Origin: Mojavia pulchra JT2-VF2
Lineage (GTDB): Bacteria > Cyanobacteriota > Cyanobacteriia > Cyanobacteriales > Nostocaceae
Reading direction: 5' to 3'
DNA: 64,000 nt
NCBI GenBank assembly: GCA_019359325.1
Contig: JAHHHN010000011.1
Span: 62,001 to 126,000 of the forward strand
Positions 60,413-61,276 of the stretch are shown one piece after another. A program made the position numbers and the translations under genes. Every line of letters begins with the position of its first letter. Within the stretch, counting starts at the first letter, position 1. The notes under the pieces were generated by a model, which was not told the DNA's origin, did no database searches, and saw only the letters and a list, made by a program, of their open reading frames with translations.

Positions 60413-61276
60413 ATGGGTGAAATAATTAATAGTGCTGTCAACGGCGATCGCATAAATTATTTTGTACATATTCAAGAAATTTATCCTCCCTTAGGCGCTT
60501 ACATTACTCTTTATATGCTGGAAAGCTTTGGCACTACAGTTAAGATAAAGAGCCAATATCAAGCCCAAGAAATAAAGATACAAATTTGGACAAATGCCTT
60601 AAATAAATTTAACAGTGAAGGTTTTTGGCACGCTATAGACTTAGACTACCAATCCCAAGAAGAAAAAGATACATATATTTTCCAAGGTTCATTTCTGCCT
60701 ACCAGTCCAGGACAGTATCAATTTACTTACAGAATCGGGCTGAATCATGGTGATGAACAATGGCAATGGGCAGGAAGCTTTGGAGAAAATGGCTATCTCG
60801 TAGTTGAACCTCCATCTCCTACTATGACATGGACACAAGGAGCAAACCATGTTGAGTTTTTGCCTGGGGTTTATGTTGGTAACTTAATAGCAGCTTCTCA
60901 AGCGGAACAGTTGCAATTTGATGCGGTGTTAAACTTAGCCTCTGAATTTACTTTAGCTTTTGCATCTACTGCTAATCTTAATTATAAAAAGATTGGTTTA
61001 ACAGATGGAGCGCACAATTCTATATCTGATTATGCGTTGTTAGAATCTATTAACTGGATAGAAAAACAAGTTAAGCAAGGGAAGAAAGTTTTAGTCAATT
61101 GTCGAGCCGGGATTGGTAGAAGCGGCTCTGTTAGTATTGCCTATTGCTTCTACAAAAATCCTACTTGGATTTACCAGCAAACTCTAGAATATATGTGGAG
61201 CAAGAAAGCAGATATTTATCCTCACAAACATCTCCAAGAAAGCTTGGAAAGTCTATTTCCCCGCAGTAACTTGTAA
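60413..61276 (+). CDS. Dual-specificity phosphatase with glucan-phosphatase signature and N-terminal beta domain
   Basis: This 287-residue protein has two parts. Residues 40-133 look like a beta-sandwich of carbohydrate-enzyme type (KIQIWTNAL..., FWHAIDL, IFQGSFLPTSPGQYQFTYRIG, WQWAGSFGENGYLVV). Residues 145-285 are a DSP phosphatase (GVYVGNLIAAS, FDAVLNLASE, KIGLTDGAHNSISDYALL with general acid candidates Asp198/Asp206). The loop is VNCRAGIGRSGSV: Cys230 to Arg236. This fits the CxAGxGR signature known for glucan phosphatases (laforin, SEX4, LSF2). The usual His before Cys is Asn229. It may dephosphorylate glycogen; that is inference. A terminator lies 82 bp downstream. Confidence 0.85.
   Translation: MGEIINSAVNGDRINYFVHIQEIYPPLGAYITLYMLESFGTTVKIKSQYQAQEIKIQIWTNALNKFNSEGFWHAIDLDYQSQEEKDTYIFQGSFLPTSPGQYQFTYRIGLNHGDEQWQWAGSFGENGYLVVEPPSPTMTWTQGANHVEFLPGVYVGNLIAASQAEQLQFDAVLNLASEFTLAFASTANLNYKKIGLTDGAHNSISDYALLESINWIEKQVKQGKKVLVNCRAGIGRSGSVSIAYCFYKNPTWIYQQTLEYMWSKKADIYPHKHLQESLESLFPRSNL

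Follow-up and report, generated by a model that had tools for sequence, protein, structure and literature searches.

A candidate bacterial glucan phosphatase with a laforin-like domain order and a dikinase gene partner in non-cyanobacterial relatives

Do bacteria remove phosphate from their storage glucan by means of a dedicated phosphatase? Laforin and SEX4 have been described as absent from bacteria and archaea, where no protein was found with both domains, and a bacterial glucan phosphatase was considered unlikely (PMC2714694). A 2025 paper names laforin as the only known glycogen phosphatase (PMC12834914). In part of the text of a 2024 review on the alpha-glucan enzymes of prokaryotes the words dikinase, laforin and glucan phosphatase do not occur (PMC11046441), and a 2026 review places GWD, PWD and SEX4 in its starch scheme and names none of them in the legend to its scheme for cyanobacterial glycogen (PMC12892837). 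Our search of the open-access literature found no description of bacterial glucan phosphatases or dikinases, of the protein family described here or of its gene pair. The question is raised by an open reading frame at positions 60413-61276 (forward strand) of the window, the 64,000-nucleotide stretch of Mojavia pulchra JT2-VF2 DNA analysed here, for which the original prediction proposed a glucan phosphatase made of a sugar-enzyme domain followed by a dual-specificity phosphatase (DSP) domain.

A two-domain protein with an intact phosphatase site

The reading frame is a complete gene coding for a 287-residue protein, in which a beta-sandwich of glucan-enzyme type precedes a DSP domain matching Pfam family PF00782. 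It is not a chance frame, since full-length homologues (47-79% identity) are present in other genomes. Their distribution among filamentous cyanobacteria is sporadic: of 193 genomes from the same taxonomic family 3 have a full-length relative, and of 293 from the order Cyanobacteriales about 19 do (49-79% identity), the cyanobacterial carriers including Microseira wollei, Xenococcus, Leptolyngbya, Baaleninema, Phormidium and Spirulina. Three non-cyanobacterial contigs (L045, L047 and L050) carry full-length orthologues with 47-50% identity, and all non-cyanobacterial full-length carriers belong to one small order. A scan of genome contigs with the single sequence as query gave no match. Thiomargarita (L051) has a divergent homologue, whose N-terminal domain is very divergent, and the phosphatases at L051:9869-10966 and L174:1504-2712 end in an additional Ig-like domain about 110 residues long. 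One close relative (L003, G041:C7:142677-143492, 77% identity) contains two in-frame stop codons and is therefore likely to be a pseudogene or to reflect a sequencing error.

The DSP catalytic domain occupies residues 143-287 (60839-61273, forward strand); the Pfam DSPc profile PF00782 spans residues 153-278 (E 6e-17) and structural comparison with many DSPs gives Z values of 17 to 19. The CX5R loop, an Asp upstream of it as general acid and the DSPc fold are all present. The loop NCRAGIGRS (residues 229-237; 61097-61123, forward strand), which contains Cys230 and Arg236, was confirmed at its predicted place, as were the N-terminal motifs PGQYQFTYRIG and WQWAGSFG. Cys230, Arg236, Asp198 and the segment CRAGIGRSGS are unchanged in all 18 aligned homologues. 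Asp198 (61004-61006, forward strand), the putative general acid, lies 32 residues ahead of the catalytic Cys and takes the alignment position of the Asp found in the D-loop of laforin, SEX4, LSF2 and the DUSPs. Judged from its sequence, the C-terminal half of the protein is thus a DSP with an intact Cys230/Arg236/Asp198 site. By analogy with the DSP family, Cys230 would attack the substrate, Arg236 would hold the phosphate and Asp198 would serve as acid/base, so that the common Cys-Arg-Asp mechanism would free glucosyl residues of their phosphate monoesters.

The replacement by Asn229 of the His that precedes the catalytic Cys was correctly predicted and is conserved (15 of 18 homologues), yet it is not universal, as three homologues (L040, L046 and L048) have His at this position, the residue found in laforin. 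The invariant Tyr269 (61217-61219, forward strand) aligns with laforin Tyr304 and, to within one residue, with SEX4 Phe235 in an alignment of the homologues with glucan phosphatases, the two numbers being counted from the Cys266 and Cys198 anchors, respectively.

Next to the gene, the window encodes a carotenoid-isomerase-like oxidoreductase, a membrane protein of small size and a purT-like product (names given from sequence only), and none of these neighbours is a glycogen-metabolism gene. Comparison of 10-kb flanks revealed no gene neighbourhood conserved in cyanobacteria beyond close relatives.

The N-terminal beta-sandwich

The N-terminal domain comprises residues 15-133 (60455-60811, forward strand). 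When residues 15-140 were modelled alone with AlphaFold2 (pLDDT 92.9), the fold was a beta-sandwich, and Trp59, Trp72, Trp117 and Trp119 are invariant among the 18 aligned homologues. Searches with residues 1-140 against Pfam families and the sequences of solved structures gave no match, including none to a Pfam carbohydrate-binding module (CBM). Structural comparison with VIA-align, which has an Ig-fold background from about Z 8 upwards and in which ties within 1 Z are inseparable, matched the domain to GlgE (Z 10.3, rmsd 3.2, 111 aligned residues) and to the C-terminal domain of the glycogen phosphorylase from S. copri (Z 9.2, rmsd 2.4, 95 aligned residues). The GH5 mannanase ManDH5 had a Z value slightly above that of GlgE (10.5) but an rmsd of 4.3, and was rejected as the closest relative.

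Profile comparisons point to the same two enzymes. In whole-genome searches with the profile of the N-terminal domain, the matches outside the family that recurred in two genomes were to the glucan phosphorylase C-terminal domain (E 0.09 and 0.15); a third weak match was L074 (E 0.16, 27 positions). With hhalign, the comparison with 19 phosphorylase C-terminal domains gave P 1.1e-4 and that with five GlgE N domains P 1.2e-3, neither score being reached in any of 150 column shuffles; the alignment with GlgE domain N opens with VHIQEIYPPLG against VQIEKIYPAID. Direct comparison of the phosphorylase (GT35) C-terminal domain with GlgE domain N was not significant, so the link between these two runs through the phosphatase domain only. 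In the long-type cyanobacterial alpha-glucan phosphorylases (GT35) L072 and L073, it is the last 110 residues that form the related beta-sandwich.

The carbohydrate-enzyme appearance ascribed to this domain by the original prediction is therefore borne out by its likeness to glycogen phosphorylase and GlgE, whereas a kinship with CBM20 or CBM48 is contradicted by profile comparison. The laforin-type CBM20 was ruled out, as 120 of 150 shuffles scored as high against the cyanobacterial CBM20 profile, and so was the SEX4-type CBM48, for which 12 of 150 shuffles scored as high and a reversed-profile control scored higher. CBM21 received no support from profile comparison, and a search for CBM21 in cyanobacteria gave no match, its control being likewise silent. 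A relation to CBM74-RFGH5 was dismissed because the PDB sequence-profile search with the domain returned chance matches only (E 0.22), and hhalign showed none to the dikinase domain Ig_N_CWD1. Predicted structure and profiles together identify the N-terminal domain as a glucan-enzyme domain that is neither laforin's nor SEX4's. The same beta-sandwich occurs in the GT35 C-terminal domain and in GlgE domain N (PF11896), which are parts of glycosyl and maltosyl transferases, not of phosphatases; neither is known to be classified as a CBM.

The domain, being common to glycogen phosphorylase and GlgE, would place the enzyme on an alpha-glucan chain. However, GlgE domain N is chiefly a dimer-interface domain, beside which cyclodextrin binds (PMC5076824, PMC4526890), and the resemblance is thus no proof of glucan binding. 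This allows the proposal that the N-terminal domain is merely structural or dimerizing and belongs to an unrelated DSP acting on lipid, nucleotide or protein, the dikinase neighbour described below being a coincidence of one ancestral arrangement. We regard this as improbable, since the likeness of the domain is specific to glucan enzymes by two independent methods. A GlgE-like domain could also recognize malto-oligosaccharide phosphates, the DSP cleaving maltose-1-phosphate, glucose-1-phosphate or phosphomaltodextrins, in keeping with the use of maltose-1-phosphate and glucose-1-phosphate by GlgE and glycogen phosphorylase. A small-molecule sugar phosphatase of this kind is very unlikely: carriers G000, G201 and G220 show no GlgE, anomeric phosphate is not known as a substrate of DSPs, and the dikinase partner suggests polymer-bound C6/C3 esters instead.

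Relation to laforin, SEX4 and other phosphatases

The predicted laforin-like layout holds for the order of the domains, a beta-sandwich followed by a DSP, and fails for the nature of the first, which is not CBM20. In a whole-chain Foldseek search human laforin (4RKK) ranked first (E 2.2e-10, 307 columns), before all entries consisting of a DSP only; the low TM-score with 4RKK indicates that the two domains probably differ in relative orientation. As the N-terminal domain family differs, the laforin-like order presumably arose separately from laforin, the glycogen phosphatase (EPM2A) of animals and some protists. In SEX4 the order is reversed, the DSP being followed by a C-terminal CBM48, while the extra domain of the present family is N-terminal.

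The original prediction relied on the CxAGxGR loop as a signature separating glucan phosphatases from other DSPs. The loop indeed fits, CRAGIGR being invariant across the family and CxAGxGR being shared with laforin, but the archaeal TkPTP (HCMAGLGRSG) shows the same pattern, as do numerous bacterial DSPs from other clades (L052-L063, with HCRAGIGRSG). We therefore rejected it as a diagnostic of glucan phosphatases: shared with unrelated bacterial and archaeal DSPs, it has no discriminating power.

Phylogeny did not place the phosphatase domain with the glucan phosphatases either. A DSP tree of 42 rows was built, in which the human anchor sequences were checked against PDB chains, and DUSP10 and TkPTP were taken from PDB alignments. 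In the best tree the family forms one clade (support 99/98) and laforin, SEX4, LSF2 and LSF1 form a separate one (93/88), both grouping with eukaryotic DSPs and apart from the ordinary bacterial HCRAGIGRSG phosphatases. Constraining the family to join the glucan phosphatases (p-AU 0.29), laforin (p-AU 0.147) or the DUSPs (p-AU 0.27) was not rejected. According to the best tree, the DSP domain of this bacterial family thus stands beside, not inside, the laforin/SEX4/LSF2 clade, a position that also suits an unrelated DSP with a structural N-terminal domain.

Some residues outside the loop differ as well. The aromatic channel of LSF2 consists of Tyr83, Tyr85, Tyr135, Trp136 and Phe162 (PMC5779698). 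The position of the D-loop residue Phe162 is Gly in 15 of 16 family members, that of Tyr135 is mostly Phe or Tyr within a gapped region of the alignment, and the recognition-domain Tyr85 has no counterpart in the family, in an alignment of a sequence range that does not include Tyr83. Laforin itself departs from LSF2 at several of the channel positions.

The best PDB relatives of the DSP sequence profile are MKP/VHR-type DSPs and TkPTP (1e-12 to 3e-14), LSF2 reaching just 1e-5, whereas with laforin as query LSF2 and LSF1 come ahead of every other DSP. MKP/VHR-type DSPs and TkPTP, whose substrates are phosphoproteins, have the same fold and catalytic residues as the family and lack its N-terminal domain of glucan type. 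Their closeness favours a protein phosphatase tethered to glycogen, in which the N-terminal domain would be an anchor to glycogen or to glycogen enzymes and the DSP would dephosphorylate Tyr, Ser or Thr (or His or Arg) of bound proteins, comparable to the recruitment of PP1 to glycogen by mammalian PTG. The structural matches of the DSP domain, mostly protein DSPs, agree with this, as do a weak match of the N-terminal domain to the CBM21 of PTG (Z 7.9, 21% identity) and the presence of the gene in cyanobacteria without detectable GWD. We consider this explanation unlikely, although less so than the other two alternatives, because a protein phosphatase would not be expected to have a glucan dikinase as its gene partner, as is seen in four genomes.

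The dikinase-phosphatase gene pair

Comparison of 10-kb flanks showed that the non-cyanobacterial contigs L045, L047 and L050 have an upstream and a downstream neighbour in common. Within one order, four genomes (L045/G738, L050/G739, L174/G741 and L176/G742, L176 being the same region as L047) have the phosphatase gene directly behind a homologue of alpha-glucan water dikinase (GWD), the enzyme that, with PWD, is opposed in plants by the DSP glucan phosphatases SEX4, LSF2 and LSF1. The dikinase homologues are encoded at L050:6834-10022, L045:6494-9955, L174:2-1411 and L176:2350-2985 (minus strand). The four intervals between dikinase stop and phosphatase start measure 8, 33, about 7 and 92 bp. 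The gene ahead of the phosphatase in L050 and L045 has matches to GWD1_pHisD (4e-18 and 7e-19), Ig_N_CWD1 (7e-18 and 2e-12) and PPDK_N (about 1e-36); in L174 it matches GWD1_pHisD and PPDK_N, so that a GWD phosphohistidine domain and PPDK_N are found in the adjoining gene of three relatives, and in L176 and L047 the contig ends within it, leaving only the PPDK_N end. The GWD-type histidine motif reads DRMSHFGIRAREQGV in the L050 and L174 dikinases and DRLSHFGIRAREQGV in that of L045, the pattern DR(M/L)SHFGIRAREQGV being intact in all three; in L050 the His lies in DRMSHFGIRARE. Flanking Lon, ArgJ, ArgC and RecD2 genes identify the contigs as bacterial. The genome of L050 (G739) also has a second, shorter GWD/PWD-like dikinase of 888 residues (L162:832-3498, minus strand; PF22973 E 1e-26, motif ILSHLSIRCRNAKV).

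Downstream of the phosphatase lie genes for radical SAM proteins, MSMEG_0568-like with a score below the cut-off (L050:11133-13656, L045:10998-12245 and L174:2795-3832); that of L050 is duplicated. The order dikinase, phosphatase, radical SAM is thus seen in L174 as well. Five genomes of the order of G739 were searched and four have the phosphatase. A single event may lie behind all four pairs, and their restriction to one small order is what an unrelated DSP beside a chance neighbour would allow; against this, the three genes stay together in four of four carriers despite sequence divergence, two of the dikinases being 53% identical.

The gene pair is the chief support for a bacterial glucan phosphatase and strengthens the function originally proposed, although the arguments from the carbohydrate-binding module, the loop motif and the clade fail or weaken. 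On balance, we favour the family as a candidate bacterial alpha-glucan (glycogen) phosphatase. It probably acts in the manner of laforin, but does not belong to the laforin or SEX4 families, which are defined by their carbohydrate-binding domains. In the non-cyanobacterial relatives the upstream dikinase would form the forward half of a phosphorylation cycle and the phosphatase its reversing half.

The situation in cyanobacteria is different. A PF22973 search for GWD in 293 Cyanobacteriales genomes gave no match, the control being likewise silent. A profile of two dikinase sequences, which does recover the dikinase in L045 and L050, gave at most PPDK_N-type matches in 13 cyanobacterial carriers, the window genome included. 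The transfer of function to cyanobacteria consequently rests on the 47-50% full-length identity and the identical catalytic motifs, and their glycogen phosphate would have to come from a source other than a dikinase. The wider proposal, that some bacteria reversibly phosphorylate their storage glucan by an operon of a dikinase and an independently assembled laforin-like phosphatase, and that the cyanobacterial orthologues are glycogen phosphatases whose substrate is phosphorylated by another route, seems to us about evenly balanced between true and false.

So far only animals, plants and protists have been known to dephosphorylate storage glucan, and a bacterial kinase/phosphatase pair would bring this chemistry into prokaryotes. 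If true, it would offer simple genetic systems for the study of glucan phosphorylation and would bear on the origin of glycogen phosphate, a matter relevant to both Lafora disease and the evolution of starch.
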